From NCBI RefSeq assembly GCF_027595985.1, contig NC_073306.1, positions 155,321,855 through 155,385,854 of the forward strand: 64,000 nucleotides of DNA. The letters run 5' to 3'. This document shows, piece after piece, positions 3,066-57,360 of this stretch. The translations under genes and the position numbers were made by a program. Each line of letters opens with the position of its first letter. The first letter of the stretch is position 1. The stretch comes from Sorex araneus (Eukaryota; Chordata; Mammalia; Eulipotyphla; Soricidae). The notes beneath the pieces were generated by a model. That model was not told where the DNA came from and did not search any database. It was given only the letters and a program-made list of their open reading frames with translations.

Positions 3066-3541
3066 GAAAAAAGCAATAAACATATCAATTTTCTCTAAGA
3101 AGAGATTTTTATATACCTTTGAAACCTATCCTTGTCACATATTTACAAATATCAGTTTCTAAAAATGATTAAATCAAACATTTCAAAATGACATTTCATT
3201 TTACACTACTCTTGTGGGGAAGTATTATCGCTACATAAATTAGGTAATGTTATATTTTCCCCTATTTTGATCAGTTTGTGAATATATAATATATTAGGGG
3301 TTATAAGCTGTCCTGTTGAAATTAATGAACAGTTGAGGAAAGGAAAGTACGAAGAACTTGAATAATAAGTCTGGGAAAGAAAACCCAGAGAGAGATAAAA
3401 CATACAGGAAGCCCTACATTTTCAAGCCTATCTTGTAAATTCACATTAAACTTGGTTCTAACAAAATGTTGAGCCCCTTCTTAATTGAGATCCAGATAGA
3501 TTAAGCTATTCTATTTTTTTTAATCTTTTAATATCCATTTC
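3066..3541. other. No feature recognised
   Basis: AT-rich spacer between the L1 end and a SINE. No repeat or exon signal was seen. Confidence 0.4.
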
Positions 3542-22084: not shown

Positions 22085-22440
22085 TTTCATTGTTGTTGTA
22101 TAACAAGATGTTTTACTTATCATCCTTTTTCCATATTTACCCAATTATTTTATTATTAAAAACTTCATATAATCTTCTGGATTATATGATTGACAGCATG
22201 TTATTTACAAATGATAAACAGTTTCATCTCTTAGTATTTTAAACTTTTTATCTTTGATCTCTAGATCTTTGGTTAATGTGGCAACTAATTTGTCTACAAG
22301 TCTTTGAATAGGTTCTATGCTAAGCATGTTAATGTCTTTATTCCTAGTGTTAATCACTTATATCATTGGTATTAAATGTTATCATTTTCTTCTACATTTA
22401 GAGAGATGATTATATGCTTCTCTCTTTTAAATTAACGTAG
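22085..22440 (-). mobile_element. Old L1 fragment, ORF2 antisense
   Basis: The plus strand carries the antisense L1 ORF2 pattern (tgacagcatgttatttacaa ... tctttattcctagtgttaat ... gagagatgattatatgctt). The reading frame is destroyed. The RTE copy at 22451 is inserted at its right edge. Confidence 0.7.
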
Positions 22441-22450
22441 TAAAATGTAC

Positions 22451-23850
22451 ATTGCCTGTCCTTCGCCAACTACAAGACAAAGATGACTGCCCCCCGACGT
22501 CCCGATGGATCTATGACATCCTCCAAAAGGCAATGGAGAAAATTATTCACGACTCCTACTCGGATCTCTTTGACAGCCATGTCCACCTGCCCACATACCA
22601 AATTCCGCAGGATGGATATGTCGTTCCCGACATTCTCCCTTCTGAAATCCGACACGCCATTTTGCTGGTAAAGATGCGAACAGCACCTGGTGTAGACAAG
22701 GTCAGACCCAAACACCTGAAGAATCTGCCACCAGTACTCATCAATACACTGGCCCGACTCTTCACACGCTACCTGTCTGAATGCAAGGTTCCATCCCAGT
22801 GGAAAACCAGTAGGACGGTTCTGTTGTACAAGAAGGGAGACATCCACGACATCGGCAACTATCGCCCAATCTGCCTGCTGTCTGTCATCTACAAGTTGTT
22901 CACTTGTGTCATCCTGAATAGAACAGGCAGAACACTAGACGAAGGGCAACCATGCGAGCAAGCTGAGTTCCGAAGAGGATTCAGCACGATCGACCATATC
23001 CACACAGTGACCAAACTCATTGAAGTTTCGAGAGAGTTCAAGATGCCGTTCTGTCTAATGTTCATTGACTTATAGAAGGCCTTCAATTCTGTTGAGACTG
23101 AGGCGGTCATCAAAGCCTTGGTCAAACAGGGCGTTCAAACTCAGTATATCAAAATCCTCTGAGAGCTGTATTGTTGGCTCACCACCAGGATCTCACCATT
23201 CTACAAGGAAGTGATCATTGATGTAAAGAGAGGGGTGCGGCAGGGTGATACCATTTCACCGAAACTCTTCAGTGCTGCCCTTGAGAACATCATGCGACGA
23301 CTGGAATGGGAAGGAATGCGAGTGAAGATAGATGGTCGGCAATTACACCACCTCCTTTTTGATTCCACCATTCTTCCTGCACTAACATATGCCTCAGAGA
23401 CCTGGGCCCTACGCAAGCAGGATGAGAATGCTATTAGGGTATCCCAAAGAGGAATCGAAAGAGCAATGCTGGGAATATCATGTCTCACTCAAGTGAGAGA
23501 AGGAATCCGGAGTTCTGACCTCCATCGATGGTCAAAAATCAGAGATGCTGTCTCATTTGCCAAGGCATCAAAAATCAGATGGGTCGGTCATGTAATGCAA
23601 TTGAGAGACGACCGTTGGACTAGAGCTGTTACAGATTGGATTCCATGGGACGTCAGAAGACCTCGTGGCTGCCCACCAACTAGATGGTCAGATTTCTTTG
23701 TCAAATCTCTGAGTGAACGATTTGAGGCTCTTTCTGTTCCTGGAGTGAGCAGGTATCATTGGGCTACACTAGCTCGCAGCAGGGACAATTGGAGATGTTA
23801 CTGGCGCCCGCTCGAGCAAATCGAAGATCAACGGGACTACAAGTGATACA
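22451..23850 (+). mobile_element. RTE-clade LINE, 5' truncated, internally deleted, with TSD
   Basis: A 1.4-kb copy of a non-LTR retrotransposon of the RTE clade, recalled as like RTE1_Sar of the common shrew. A 12-bp TSD with one mismatch flanks it (AGTAAAATGTAC at 22439-22450, AGTAAAATATAC at 23851-23862). It lacks the N-terminal endonuclease through 5' truncation. There is almost no 3' UTR: the ORF stop (23844-23846) lies four bases from the element end. Its terminal ~65 bases supply the 3' end of the RTE-tailed SINEs in this window. GC content is clearly above that of its surroundings. Confidence 0.93.
22452..23846 (+). pseudogene. RTE reverse transcriptase ORF, inactivated
   Basis: It would encode the reverse transcriptase that copies the element's RNA at the target site. 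In one frame it shows a pre-RT region, GVDKVRPKHL, the NYRPICLLS motif, the GFSTIDHIHTVTKLI motif, motif A as FID followed by a stop (TAG at 23073) then KAFNSVE, a second stop (TGA, about 23160), and GVRQGDTISPKLFSAALE (motif B, about 23226-23285). The text then jumps in frame at about 23355 from LHHL to FDSTILPALTYASETWALR, so the catalytic FADD motif and about 140 residues are absent. The C-terminal half stays open to the stop and ends WRPLEQIEDQRDYK. Both stops and the deletion rule out activity. Confidence 0.92.
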
Positions 23851-43179: not shown

Positions 43180-44820
43180 GTTGATCTTCGATTTGCTCAA
43201 GTGGGCGCCAGTAACATCTCCAGTTGTCCCTGTCGCGTGCTAGTGCAGCCCAATGGTATCTGCTCGCTCAGGAACATGAAGAGCCTCAAACCATTCGTTC
43301 AGGGTTTTGACAAAGAAGTCTTACCATCTTGTAGGTGGGCGGCCATGCGATCTTTTGACGTCTTGTGGAATCCAATTGGTAACAGCTTTAGTTCAGTGGT
43401 CATCTCTAAATCGCATTATGTGTCCAGCCCATCTGATTTTCGATGCCTTGGCAAACGAGACAATGTTTCTGATTCCTGATTGTAGACAGATGTCAGAACA
43501 CTGGATTCCTTCTTGTAGACAGACGTCAGAACACTGGATTCCTTCTTTCGCTTGAGTGAAGTGTGATATTTCAAGCATAGCTCTTTTGATTCCTCTTTGG
43601 GATACCCAAATAGTGTTCTCATCCTGTTTTTGTAGGGCCCAGGTCTCTGAGGCATATGTTAGTGCAGGAAGAACAGTGGAGTCCAAAAGATGTGCCCACA
43701 GCCGTAGGATCCTCGTCCTCTTAACCACTTCTTCGATGCTCTTGAAGTTCCATTTGAATTTTTGAACATTTGAAAATTTGAACTCTTTTTTGAGCATTTT
43801 GAACATTTGAAAGTGCATTGAACGTTCCACGCTGCTCTCTTCCTCCTGTGTAGTTCTGGCACCAAGTCATTCCTCATGTTGTGTTTTCGACCCAGGTACA
43901 CATAGCTGCTGACTTTGAAGATGTTCTTTCTGTTGAGAGCAAATGGAATGTCAAGGACTAGTTCCTTTTTTATGAACATTGTCTTGGTGAGATTAAGCTG
44001 CAGTCTGACCAGATTCAGTCTGACCACGAGTATGCAGCTGCATACTCGTGGTCAAAGTCGGCCAGCATTTGTGCCACTTGGCTAATGTTTCGTGTTATTA
44101 GAATGATGTCATCAGCGAAGTGGAGGTGGTATACTTGCCAACCATCTATCTTCACTCCTTCCTTCATTCCTTCCCATTCCAGTCATCACATGATCTCGAG
44201 GGTGGCACTGAAGAGTTTTGGTGAAATGGTATCACCCTGCTGAACCCCTCTCTTTACATCGATGATCACTTCCTTGTAGAATGGTAAGATCCTGGTGGTG
44301 AATCCATAATACAGCTCTCAGAGGATCGTGACATACTGAATTTTAACGCCCTGTTTGTCTACGGCTTCGATGACTGATTCAGTCTCAACAGAATCAAAGG
44401 CCTTCTTTAAATCAATGAACGTTAGACAGAGTGGCATCTTGAACTTTTGCAAAACTTCAATGAGCTTGGTCACGTGTGGATAGGGTAGATCATGCTGAAT
44501 CCTTTTCGGAACCCAGCTTGCTTGAATGGCTGTCCTTCGTCTAGTGTTCTGCCAATCCTAGTGAGGATGACTCGAGTGAACAACTTGCAGACGAGAGACA
44601 ACAGGCAGGTTGGGCGATAGTTGCCCATGTCGTGAATGTCTCCCTTCTTGTACAACAGAACGGTCTTGCTGGTTTTGCATTGGGATGGAACCTTGCATTC
44701 TAACAGGTAGCGTGTGAAGAGCTGAATCAGTGTATTGATGAGTACTGGAGGCAGAGTTTTCAGGTGTTCGAGTCTGACCTTGTCTGCACCGGGTGCTGTA
44801 CGCTTCTTTACCAACGAAAT
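43180..44820 (-). pseudogene. RTE reverse transcriptase ORF, frameshifted
   Basis: Pieces in several frames: the NYRPTCLLS motif (about 44580-44640), GFRKGF (about 44500-44520), motif A-like FIDL-KKAFDSV (about 44388-44424, antisense), GVQQGDTISPKLFSATLE (about 44200-44260), and HLHFADDIIL (about 44105-44135), which contains the catalytic FADD. The C-terminal half reads FDSTVLPALTYASETWALQK and includes a duplicated 12-residue block (KESSVLTSVY twice, about 43480-43545). At least three frame changes inactivate it. Confidence 0.88.
44022..44053. repeat. Perfect 32-bp palindrome
   Basis: Left arm GACCACGAGTATGCAG (44022-44037) is followed immediately by its exact reverse complement (44038-44053). 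The left arm is the extra copy: the right arm and beyond continue the RTE coding sequence (antisense of DFDHEY). Confidence 0.97.
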
Positions 44821-44869
44821 GGGAACGACATATCTATCCCAGGAAAGCCAACCTAAAAATTATTATGCC

Positions 44870-45055
44870 CTTGTTTATTGGTCTTTTGGCTAAAATCAAG
44901 CGTAGGGTCTGTTCTTATCAGTTCATATCTAATAGTCATCTATAGAAGGACAATATATAAAATGGATTTTTGGAGCAGGGAGTTGGAATAGGAGTTTTCT
45001 CTGGCCACTCCCTGCATCAAGCTGGCATTGTGGTATCTTCAGAAACAGGGCACCT
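44870..45055 (+). pseudogene. RNU2 pseudogene: U2 snRNA pseudogene, full length
   Basis: Aligned by eye to U2 small nuclear RNA over its whole ~187-nt length. It keeps TCTTTTGGCTAAAATCAAG, CTGTTCTTATCAGTT, GGACAATATAT and the Sm site ATTTTTGG (44966-44973). The 5' end is eroded, and the branch-point pairing element GTAGTA has become GTAGGG (44902-44907), so it could not act in splicing. An A-rich stretch follows (45063-45085), as expected for an L1-made retropseudogene; a clear TSD was not found. It lies within old L1 sequence. Confidence 0.92.
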
Positions 45056-45084
45056 CCGTCATTTTTAAGAGAAAGAAAGAAAAT

Positions 45085-53010: not shown

Positions 53011-53041
53011 TACCTACTAAATACATTATGTGGAATGTATT

Positions 53042-53222
53042 CACTGTCACGGTCATTTCGTTGCTCATCAATTTGCTCAAGCGGGCACCAGTAATGTCTC
53101 CACTGTGAGACTTGTTACTGGTTTTGATGTATTGAACAGGCCATGGGTAGCTTGCCATGCTCTGCAGTGCAGGCTAGATACTCTCGATAGCTTGCTGGGC
53201 TCTCCAAGAGGGGCGAAGGAAA
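53042..53222 (-). mobile_element. RTE-tailed SINE, 5' truncated, with TSD
   Basis: RTE-type end and body in antisense; the tRNA head is missing. TSD TGGAATGTATT lies at 53031-53041 and 53223-53233. Confidence 0.92.
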
Positions 53223-53248
53223 TGGAATGTATTAAAAGTTTAAAATAG

Positions 53249-53640
53249 CCGGCCCCGCGCGAGATCGACCCCGGAGGCAACTGAACCACTTTGGACATGA
53301 GCGGCGCCCCCAAAATGCCTCCAAACTGTGTGCTCGGAGCTTCTGGCCCAGGCGCTGCCGGCAGGGTATGCTCCTTTCTCTCTCAACTCTTTCTTTTTGA
53401 ACGCAGCGAGGCAATAGCCGATTTTTAGACTATGCAGGAAGCCCGGGAAAGCCGATGGGGCGGGACTTCCGGATCCGCCCCGTGCCGGCCGACATTTAAG
53501 CGCAGAGCCATGTGGGGACACTCCTTTCCGGCCCCGTGCAAGATCGACCCCGGAGGCAACTGAACCACTTTGGACACGAGCGGCACCCCCAAAATGCCTC
53601 CAAACTGTGTGCTCGGAGCTTCTGGCCCAGGCGCTGCCAG
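53249..53640 (+). repeat. CpG-rich promoter-like monomers (1.4 units)
   Basis: The block 53249-53361 recurs at 53528-53640 with about five differences, giving a 279-bp period. It is rich in CpG (CCGGCCCCGCGCGAGATCG, CGGCGCC) in an otherwise AT-rich window. The layout recalls the tandem 5' UTR monomers that act as L1 promoters in rodents, but promoter function is inferred only. Confidence 0.8.
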
Positions 53641-53661
53641 CGAGTGATGCAATTACCAAAA

Positions 53662-54175
53662 GAATTTTCCCTGGACTTCATATAGAAATCCAAAAGATTT
53701 CGAGAGCAGCCGCGCGACCTAATATCTCTTGATTGTCAGCAGCGTGTAAATGTTCCTTTTTGGCAGGGCTTACCGTGGGGGTAAACTCCAAACAATAGTA
53801 CTGAGTTTTTTGTTGAAGGGTAAAAGATTGTAGCGATAGAATTTTAGGCAGAATTTTCCCTGGACTTTATATAGGAACCCAAAACCGCGCGGCCGCGGCA
53901 GCCTAATGCCATCTAATCATCAGCAATATGAAATGGTTCCTTTGTAATGGGTTGGACTTTGGGGGGACCATAATAGGGTTAAAGTTTGTAGCGATGTGTA
54001 ATTTCTGGCTGTACTTTCCCTGGACTTTATACAGAAATTCAAAGCCGCAAGGCCGCTGCCATGGCCGCGCAACCTATTGTCATTTAATCATCACCAATAT
54101 GAAAAGGTTCCTTTTTAACGGGTCGGACTTTGGTGGGAAATCCTAACAAGAATAGTAAATCTTGTGCTGAAATAT
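53662..54175 (+). repeat. VNTR-like tandem repeats, about 160-190 bp, three copies
   Basis: Units start at 53662, 53851 and 54011 with TTTTCCCTGGACTT or TTTCCCTGGACTTTATA, then a GC-rich ccgcgcggcc-type stretch, an ATCTAATCATCAGCAATATG-type stretch, and GGTTCCTTTNNAANGGGT. Unit 1 carries about 29 extra bases. A diverged partial unit recurs at about 54620-54770. Confidence 0.85.
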
Positions 54176-54774
54176 TGAAGGCTACCAAAGTGGTAGCCAT
54201 CTCTATAGACTGAACTAAGCCATATTCCCACGCTGGCTGAGAAAAAATATCCTTCTTTCTCGGGAAGAAACGCGGCGTGGCGTTAACCATAGTATGATGT
54301 CCATTAAGCTGACACGGACCTGGTGGCGTGGGAATGGGATACAAGGGAATAAATTATTATGTACTTAGAACAGCGGGACGCTGGTGGAATCTCGAGCCGG
54401 GGCCGATACCAGCGTATTACTTTTGGTTCCAGAAACTGCTTGCAGACATTCTACTAGACTATCAACTAAGCCAGAGCCCCACGCCGGCTGATGACGGGAA
54501 ATAACCATCTTTTTTGGTTTGTTTTCCCTTTTTCAGGCAGTGTGGTGATTACTAAACAGGTGTGATCTCGGTGGCACGGGACAAGGGGGGAAAAAATAGA
54601 AAAGTTATGTAACAAACAGCGGGACTTAATATCTCTACATTCTCAGCAATGGAGAGCCATCAAATGCTTCCTTGACAGTGGGACTGTCTTCTCTTTTTTG
54701 GGGGGAAACCCTAGCAACAATAGTGAGTTATGTGTTGAAATATGGACTGTAACCAAGATAAAGCATAAACGAAG

Positions 54775-54960
54775 TGAAACTTATCACTTACAAGGGCGGG
54801 GACTGGGGGGGGGCGGGAGGGGGCGGGAGGTATAATGGGGTGGTTGGTGATGGAATATGGGCACGGGTGAAGGGAAGGGTGTTTGAGTATTGTATAACTG
54901 ACATAATCCTGAGAACTATGTAACCCTCCACATGGTGATTCAATAAAATTTAAATTAAAA
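54775..54960 (+). mobile_element. L1-type 3' UTR end of the composite element
   Basis: A G-rich tract followed by ggtgatggaatatgggcac, gggtgaagggaagggtgt, tgagtattgtataactgac and ctccacatggtgattcaata. The same ending closes the insertions at 56587-56816 and 63465-63639, and a related ending closes the L1 at 1405-2175. This links the composite to L1 machinery. Confidence 0.85.
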
Positions 54961-54974
54961 AAAAGTTTAAAATA

Positions 54975-55959: not shown

Positions 55960-57360
55960 ATTTGATGAGAATAAAAGATCTTGAATTTAGGTCATAATTC
56001 ATAAAATATACTGAGAAATGCATAGGCAAAACTATGCAGAGTAGGAACTCAGAGATGCCTTCAAGAATTTAACCCCATTGGCAAATATATCAGAAACAAA
56101 ACATATATACAAAAGAATCCAAATGGTATCACATCAGATTGCAGTCTTTATACAGAAAAAAACAAAAAAAAATCCTTCAAGCTAAAATGAAAAGACACCC
56201 TACTGAATGGGAGAAAATATTTATACACAATACATCAAAGAATTAATATCCGTGATACATACACCATACACAAACACCAAGAAGAACAAAAATCAATAAC
56301 CCCATCAAAAATATAGAGAGAGATGAACAGATAGTTCCACAAAGAAGATATATGGAGGACTGTAGACATAAGAAAAGGTATTTATAATAACTTATTATTG
56401 GGGAAACATAAATCAAAACAGAAGTGAGATGTTATTTTATGCCACTGAGAATGGCACATATCAAAGTCTGAATAAATTGGTGGGGATGTCATTAAAAAAG
56501 AATTCTAATTCATTGTTGGTAGATATACTGTTTGGTTAGCCTCCATGGAAAACTGTATGGAAACTGTTTAAAAAAGTTTAACTTTCTGAAATTTATTAGT
56601 CACACAGGCAGGGGGGCTAAGGGTGGGGGGGCTAGGGGCTTGGGGGGTTAGGGGTGTGGGGGGGGCGGGGTGGAGCTATACTGGGATTCTTGGTGGTGGA
56701 ATATGAGCACTGGTGAAGGGATGGGTATTCGAGCATTGTATAACTGAGATTTAAACCTGAAAACTTTGTAACTTTCCACATGGTCACTCAATAAAAAAAA
56801 AATAAAATAAAAATAAAAAAAGTTTAACTTTCATATGCCCTAGTAATTCTACTTCTAGATATATTCCAAAAATATGCAAATATTCATTTGAAAAGATATA
56901 TGAACAGTTATGTTCATTAAAACATTTGTTATAAAAGCCTAAATATGGAAAACAGCCACCCAAATATCCAATGAGAAATGAATGGATAAACATTCTACAG
57001 ACCCAGTGGAATACCATATAGCCATGAGAAAAGATGAACTCACATTTCACTTAATTTTGATGGAACTGGAGGGTAATAAGGTAAGCAAAATTTTATACCA
57101 AAAACAGGAATGATTAATAACCAAGTATCTCAAACATTTGTAGAAATACAAAGTCAGGGGACGGAGAATATCACATGATAAGAAACTTGGTTGGCCCTGG
57201 ATTACACAAATACCAAGCAAAGTAGTGAATTGGGAGGTAAGTAGGAGGATGAAGAAGTGAAGTGGAAATAACACAGGGACATTGATGGATGGCCTTGAGC
57301 ATTTTGGTGATGGTGAAGTTGGTAACACTATTGTAACATGTGACAAAAATTATTAAATTT
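55960..57360 (+). mobile_element. Old L1, ORF2 C-terminal region and 3' UTR, split by an insertion
   Basis: Ordered ORF2 remnants: ctactgaatgggagaaaata, agaattaatatccgtgat, tcattgttggtagatatact, ctccatggaaaactgtatgg, then after the insertion ccctagtaattctacttcta, gaatggataaacattctaca and ggaataccatatagccatg. The 3' UTR ends near 57360. Frames are broken. Interrupted at 56587-56816. Confidence 0.85.
56587..56816 (+). mobile_element. L1-type 3' UTR insertion with extreme G-tract and TSD
   Basis: A 230-bp insertion made only of a 3' UTR: a G-rich tract (56609-56673, many GGGG runs), the ending shared with 54775-54960, AATAAA and an A-rich tail. TSD AAAAAGTTTAACTTTC lies at 56571-56586 and 56817-56832. 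Confidence 0.92.

Follow-up and report, generated by a model that had tools for sequence, protein, structure and literature searches.

Introduction

VNTR composite retroelements form families that share a core and differ in their other parts (PMC4432496; PMC5753468), and one of these reports calls SVA-type composites hominoid-specific (PMC4432496). Within L1 itself, an account of 5′ UTR evolution gives at least 8 episodes of 5′ UTR replacement in primates and at least 11 in mouse, describes the clustering of mouse L1 5′ ends within a monomer, and names two ideas for such replacement, namely escape from host suppression and avoidance of competition for host factors (PMC9022269).

Here we analyzed a unit of ~1.7 kb from the common shrew, Sorex araneus, that lies in a 64,000-nt stretch of DNA (the window). 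A preliminary description had taken it for an SVA-like composite, a possible shrew analogue of the L1-mobilized SVA and LAVA of apes. Our results agree with an ORF-less composite, with L1-type insertion and with an SVA-like lifestyle, but not with the parts of SVA: the unit fits the description of an L1 deletion derivative, one with exchanged, putative promoter modules, better than that of an SVA.

Results

Structure of the unit

The unit spans positions 53249-54960, between perfect 14-nt direct repeats (Table 1). Its body has the layout A-A-A-B-B-A followed by a G-rich 3′ end, without ORF1 or ORF2. The parts named in the preliminary description (CpG-rich 5′ monomers, a block in two copies, a G-rich tract, an L1-type 3′ end, AATAAA and an A-rich tail) are all present, as are the 14-bp target-site duplications (TSDs) around a single 1.7-kb unit. 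The reported lack of ORF1 and ORF2 was confirmed by tblastn with the ORF1 and ORF2 of this genome, which gave no match at E 1 in the family consensus, in the module-2 element or in the old element described below. The "VNTR-like" repeats were a different matter. The tandem-looking blocks are diverged copies, of ~160-200 nt, of the A block of an L1 type II 3′ UTR, plus the two B copies (111 of 141 aligned nt identical between B1 and B2 in the consensus), and Tandem Repeats Finder (TRF) detected no array inside 53248-54960.

Table 1. Coordinates of the unit, its parts and a related insertion in the window
Feature	Coordinates	Strand	Remarks
5′ target-site duplication	53234..53247	+	AAAAGTTTAAAATA; TT before it, giving an L1-endonuclease-like TT/AAAA site
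Module-1 monomer	53249..53527	+	Complete, CpG-rich
Module-1 second monomer	53528..53650	+	Partial (leader part), joined to the body
A1	53651..53838	+	First copy of the L1 type II 3′-UTR block
A2	53839..53997	+	Second A copy
A3	53998..54203	+	Third A copy
B1	54204..54455	+	Absent from the L1 3′ UTRs compared
B2	54456..54614	+	Diverged second B copy
A4	54615..54789	+	Fourth A copy, partial; lies beside the 3′ end, an arrangement shared with type II L1
L1-type 3′ end	54790..54960	+	G-rich tract from 54790, AATAAA, A-rich tail
3′ target-site duplication	54961..54974	+	Same AAAAGTTTAAAATA
5′-truncated insertion	56587..56815	+	Relative of the unit but separate; own 17-nt TSD AAAAAAGTTTAACTTTC at 56570-56586 / 56816-56832

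The module-1 monomers that start at 53249 and 53528 (spacing, 279 nt) are 93% identical over 123 nt. Two presumed promoter motifs lie inside the complete monomer. At 53457 it has GGGCGGG/ACTTCCGG, and at 53495, 28 nt upstream of CCTTT, the TATA-like TTTAAG. A 145-codon open frame, 53240-53677 (-), runs antisense across the CpG-rich monomers and is probably an effect of composition. At gathering scores, Rfam models gave no Alu-like (SRP RNA) match in the window and none of the tRNA, 7SL or 5S type, so that no SINE-type pol III promoter was detected at this threshold.

The CpG observed/expected ratio was 0.81-0.89 in four segments over 53248-54460 and 0.48 and 0.54 in the last two segments of the unit, against 0.26 for the whole window, and the 12 most CpG-rich 1,713-nt stretches of the window all overlap the unit. 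Such retention of CpG is as expected of a young insertion.

To judge chance matches between flanks, random pairs from the window were compared: 9 of 20,000 shared at least 14 nt, and among AT-rich pairs 167 of 50,000 did, an excess that we suspect to come from shared simple repeats. The paired and mispaired flanks of the 39 further copies described next are a better control than random pairs.

The unit belongs to a young multi-copy family

The genome (2.406 Gb, 65 contigs) was searched with the unit. The best 40 of 5,508 candidates were scored, and comprised the window copy and 39 others with 94.6-96.2% identity to it, all of which were taken with 250-nt flanks. Thirty-six of the 39 are near full length with the same ends (query ≤14 to ≥1705), and the remaining three begin at query 130-204. 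The alignment starts at 53249 or 53250 in 33 of the 39, and at query 4, 6, 14, 130, 192 and 204 in the rest. The G at 53248, with which the unit began in the preliminary description (53248..54960), is therefore not shared by the copies.

Of the 39 copies, 27 had exact flanking repeats of at least 10 nt and 26 had repeats of at least 12 nt; the corresponding counts for mispaired flanks were 4 of 468 and 0 of 468. An end-to-end finder missed most copies because the family starts upstream of the query start, and the TSD search was widened. Twelve copies had no exact 10-nt repeat under the strict finder, several of them having one with a mismatch. Insertion sites were of the TT/AA type in 6 of the 27 copies, and looser ones were seen in others. 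We conclude that the unit belongs to a young multi-copy family with fixed ends and its own TSDs. It is not a single genomic copy, and the many copies with the same boundaries that the preliminary description had named as support for a family do exist. The variable VNTR number that it had also named was not seen: internal repeat number was constant in the 36 near-full-length copies (lengths 1,684-1,724), a sample picked by similarity to the window copy, and variation in copy number was seen in the 5′ CpG-rich monomers.

Over 37 copies, including the window copy, mean divergence from the majority consensus was 1.4% at non-CpG and 8.7% at CpG positions; the 40-copy samples and the consensus consist of the nearest relatives of each query, which biases both divergence and structure. 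Pattern counts over the whole genome, which allowed up to 3 mismatches and gave 0 with reversed controls, revealed 1,256 junctions of module 1 with the body, 691 junctions inside the module-1 array, 639 junctions of module 2 (see below) with the body, and 5,241 family 3′ ends. Truncation at the 5′ side would leave more 3′ ends than junctions, and decay of the CpG-rich junction patterns contributes to the difference. That module-body junctions outnumber internal ones is consistent with a partial monomer alone in many copies, with the reservation that the pattern for internal junctions spans a variable stretch and could miss some of them.

At two loci, family copies stand head to tail with copies of other subfamilies, nearly without a spacer (L006, ~3200-3230; L044, ~560-620, reverse complement). 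Three patterns taken from the unit had no match in viral contigs, and a distant search among phages gave none either; these negatives carry no information, since no other mammalian genome was found in the collections. No description of the family was present among the literature matches listed, which is a statement about those matches and not about the literature as a whole.

The body derives from the 3′ UTR of a young L1

Two L1 lineages of this genome are here named type I and type II, terms coined in this analysis. The insertion at 56587-56815 is 94.6-95.2% identical to the 3′ ends of five loci (L084-L088), and type II L1 ORF2 sequence is present in three of the five. At L085, L087 and L088 the ORF2 C-terminus is followed directly by an A block, the G-rich tract and a 3′ end of the 56587 type; L084 and L086 are truncated. 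L085 carries more than 1.8 kb of ORF2, 84.5% identical to that of the young type I L1. In a search for type II L1, all 40 copies scored, of 1,581 candidates, had 98-100% identity, which marks this lineage as young.

All four A copies, A1-A4, match the type II 3′ UTR (z 12-25). Against the type I 3′ UTR no A copy had a match upstream of the G-rich end of type I; the 3′ end of the unit matches that of type I more weakly than that of type II. Both the A blocks and the 3′ end of the unit are therefore of L1 3′ UTR origin. Block B matched neither the type I nor the type II 3′ UTR.

Start sites and exchangeable 5′ modules

The window copy begins at CCGGCC and lacks (G)CCTTT. This sequence, the commonest start in the family, lies 5-6 nt upstream of CCGGCC and 28 nt downstream of the TTTAAG of a preceding monomer; it is where 12 of the 24 copies begin that combine a TSD of at least 10 nt with an intact front. 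Seven of the 39 copies extend ~20-60 nt into an upstream monomer. This pattern would be the picture expected if the promoter of each monomer started transcription at the head of the next.

At L006, an adjoining element has the same type of body (87% over 944 nt) behind a different module of 332 nt (module 2). The best 40 of 4,575 candidates for this element showed 96-100% identity; 39 of the 40 start at query ≤30, and 5 of the 40 carry 1-6 extra 332-nt monomers. The module-2 set looks younger than the module-1 set, each sample being tied to its query copy. A third module, with a spacing of ~295 nt, stands on a short body with a single A block in an old element (L005), for which 39 other copies, scored of 10,679 candidates, had 81-86% identity; 38 of these start at query 42-102 and all end at 795-864.

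Similarity of modules 1-3 to each other and to the type I and type II 5′ UTRs did not go beyond shuffles (z -1.0 to 2.4). Homology of modules 1 and 2 had been suspected from their GC-box/TATA layout and was rejected, local alignment giving z 0.0 against shuffles, a comparison that would miss remote homology. Related bodies therefore stand behind three 5′ modules without detectable similarity.

The 5′ UTRs of L1 elements

We compared the family with 36 ORF1-bearing loci (30 ORF1 loci and six full-length young L1s); L1 5′ UTR sequence was recognizable in 24 of the first 30. Modules 1-3, A1-A3 and B had no match in the 36 loci at E 0.01, and matches of the unit to these L1s were confined to L1-type 3′ ends and to chance matches of 14-30 nt with E >0.1. 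The type I L1 has ORF1 and ORF2, and other UTRs than the unit. Young L1s of this genome also carry short tandem repeats in the 5′ UTR.

Type II copies were probed for ORF1 at the expected distance: 0 of 20 had it there, as against 3 of 12 selected for a longer ORF2, and one further copy (L114) matches the stretch L122. This stretch, which is 441 nt long and placed upstream of ORF1 in a type II copy, matches other L1 5′ UTRs (type I against type II, z 16.5). Against the three composite elements its lowest E value was 0.06. It is the single type II 5′ stretch read, from a copy that was typed by 98% ORF2 identity and not by its 3′ UTR. A second 5′ stretch, L123, is mostly a flanking L1 3′ end and has 61 nt in common with L122. 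Full-length L1s with the same blocks in the 5′ UTR, an alternative raised in the preliminary description, were found neither among the 36 ORF1 loci nor in the one type II stretch. An L1 lineage outside the sample could carry module 1, 2 or 3.

Identity of the lineage of L058 and L075 with type II was ruled out: 40 matches of the one and 40 of the other had no overlap in coordinates, and ORF1 of type II reaches only 76-81% identity with L058 and L075. The three L1 lineages (type I, type II and L058/L075) each have copies at ~97-99% identity or more, and several L1 lineages seem to have been active side by side.

A CpG-rich hairpin in the A block

Both in the L1 3′ UTR and in the composite, the A block contains a CpG-rich hairpin. 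It was aligned in 7 hand-chosen, trimmed sequences, two of them consensus stretches; A2, A4, L087 and an older L004 copy without the hairpin were left out. Pairing holds in 87% of the cells of this alignment, and both sides change in 4 of the 11 pairs. None of 500 shuffles attained the covariation score, but the count of both-sided pairs was reached by shuffles 69 times and the count of pair types 128 times. In the consensus the hairpin is present in A1 and A3 only, A2 having lost one arm and A4 starting after it. A gap or insertion of at least 4 nt falls in the A1 hairpin (columns 458-496) in 14 of 37 aligned copies, including the window copy, which argues against a strict need for it. Decay of CpG could mimic compensation. 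With seven chosen sequences and such decay, conservation of the hairpin is only a lead.

Neighboring sequences in the window

Just upstream of the unit lies a short element, 53032-53233, flanked by GGAATGTATT at 53032 and 53224, and the unit is inserted at its downstream edge. An older L1 3′ end at 1380-2165 comprises an ORF2 C-terminus and a type I-like 3′ UTR. Broken reverse-transcriptase-like ORFs at 22431-23846 (+) and 43393-44859 (-) were taken to be of the RTE type, and are set beside RTE1_Sar by name only. Horizontal transfer of RTE1_Sar between nematodes and the common shrew has been reported in one article (PMC6542046). A U2 snRNA-like match at 44870-45058, which covers the full Rfam model (90.5 bits), is the sole Rfam match in the window at gathering scores.

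Discussion

We consider it highly probable that the unit represents a non-autonomous, L1-dependent family, in which an expanded, ORF-less L1 3′ UTR body is preceded by a CpG-rich tandem front with exchanged modules, and which would multiply by a cycle of the following kind. As judged from its sequence, the front module would most likely be an RNA polymerase II promoter, and transcription would start from one monomer, ~28 nt downstream of the TATA-like box, at (G)CCTTT. The RNA would be polyadenylated at the L1-type 3′ end, and an autonomous L1 would supply proteins in trans for target-primed reverse transcription, which would leave TSDs and 5′ truncations; type I and type II L1s both appear young enough to supply them. 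The family has the hallmarks of L1 mobilization, namely TSDs, A-rich tails, TT/AA-type sites and truncated copies. Over time the lineage would have gone through at least three 5′ modules while its body grew. It probably arose by internal deletion of an L1, and then continued as an independent lineage that exchanges promoter modules as L1 does.

Similar copies would arise if full-length L1s with the same 5′ UTR had lost their ORFs, perhaps by splicing, with no independent lineage involved. The A blocks and the 3′ end are indeed L1 3′ UTR, and young L1s here do have short tandem repeats in their 5′ UTRs. We nevertheless find this improbable: neither modules 1-3 nor A1-A3 nor B occur in the 36 ORF1-bearing loci at E 0.01, the type II stretch resembles other L1 5′ UTRs (z 16.5) and reaches only E 0.06 with the composites, and the internal junctions (691, possibly an undercount) are fewer than the module-body junctions (1,256), which indicates no large pool of module 1 outside the family. 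A true SVA-type composite, with host-gene, SINE and VNTR pieces spliced onto an L1-compatible tail, would likewise be non-autonomous and CpG-rich, with tandem repeats and L1-type insertion, and modules 1-3 and B could be host sequence. However, the lack of an Alu/SRP-like Rfam match at gathering scores, the lack of a TRF array within the unit, and the identity of the A repeats with L1 3′ UTR make such an origin very unlikely. Least probable of all, in our view, is an origin from a host lncRNA gene that gave rise to many retrocopies while its first exons changed. Differing modules on a shared body do resemble alternative first exons, but a mobile element accounts better for tandem monomers that occur in extra copies, for starts 28 nt downstream of an internal TATA-like box, and for the 3′ UTR of a young L1.

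Within the preferred reading of an L1-dependent family, a further proposal can be made tentatively, and we hold it to be somewhat less likely true than false. The family may be an ORF-less L1 offshoot that has kept its own lineage through at least three modules that no sampled L1 uses, that has multiplied a 3′ UTR segment, and whose hairpin, in part of the copies, may attract L1 proteins. If so, it would be a parasite of a parasite, running its own race of 5′ replacement against host silencing, separate from that of the L1 that mobilizes it.

If borne out, the family would offer an independent case of the SVA-type lifestyle in a different order, with enough young copies for statistical analysis. 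It makes no protein, so its own ORFs cannot drive promoter changes, and it could help to discriminate between the two ideas on 5′ UTR replacement named in the Introduction. The L1 3′ UTR blocks that it has multiplied would be a natural experiment on which part of an RNA wins L1 proteins in trans. The three young L1 lineages found here contrast with the single-lineage model that one account gives for human and mouse (PMC9022269).

Like the unit, SVA, LAVA, PVA and FVA have no ORFs, are composite, contain a tandem part and insert in L1 fashion. They differ in having an Alu-like part and a central VNTR of 35-50-bp units, neither of which was found in the unit, and in that the body of the unit derives from an L1 3′ UTR. 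In SVA the 3′ part is a SINE-R derived from HERV-K10; the 3′ part of the unit matches an L1 3′ UTR. The monomeric 5′ UTRs of mouse L1 share with this family tandem monomers, varying monomer number, 5′ ends that cluster within the monomer, and repeated replacement of the 5′ end by unrelated sequence; mouse L1, however, is autonomous, whereas the composite lineage here has no ORFs.

The trypanosome RIME/NARTc elements, Bov-A and HAL1 are, like the unit, non-autonomous elements that kept LINE ends after loss of coding capacity. HAL1 keeps ORF1. RIME and Bov-A are short and keep the 5′ end of the LINE itself, whereas the 5′ modules of the composite match no L1 sampled. In this genome, the A block and the 3′ end are common to the unit and type II L1, which differs from the unit in its ORF2 sequence, in the ORF1 of some copies and in another 5′ UTR in the one stretch read. 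L1-dependent non-autonomous elements are already known, and we place the unit among them as an L1 deletion derivative with its own exchangeable, putative promoters.
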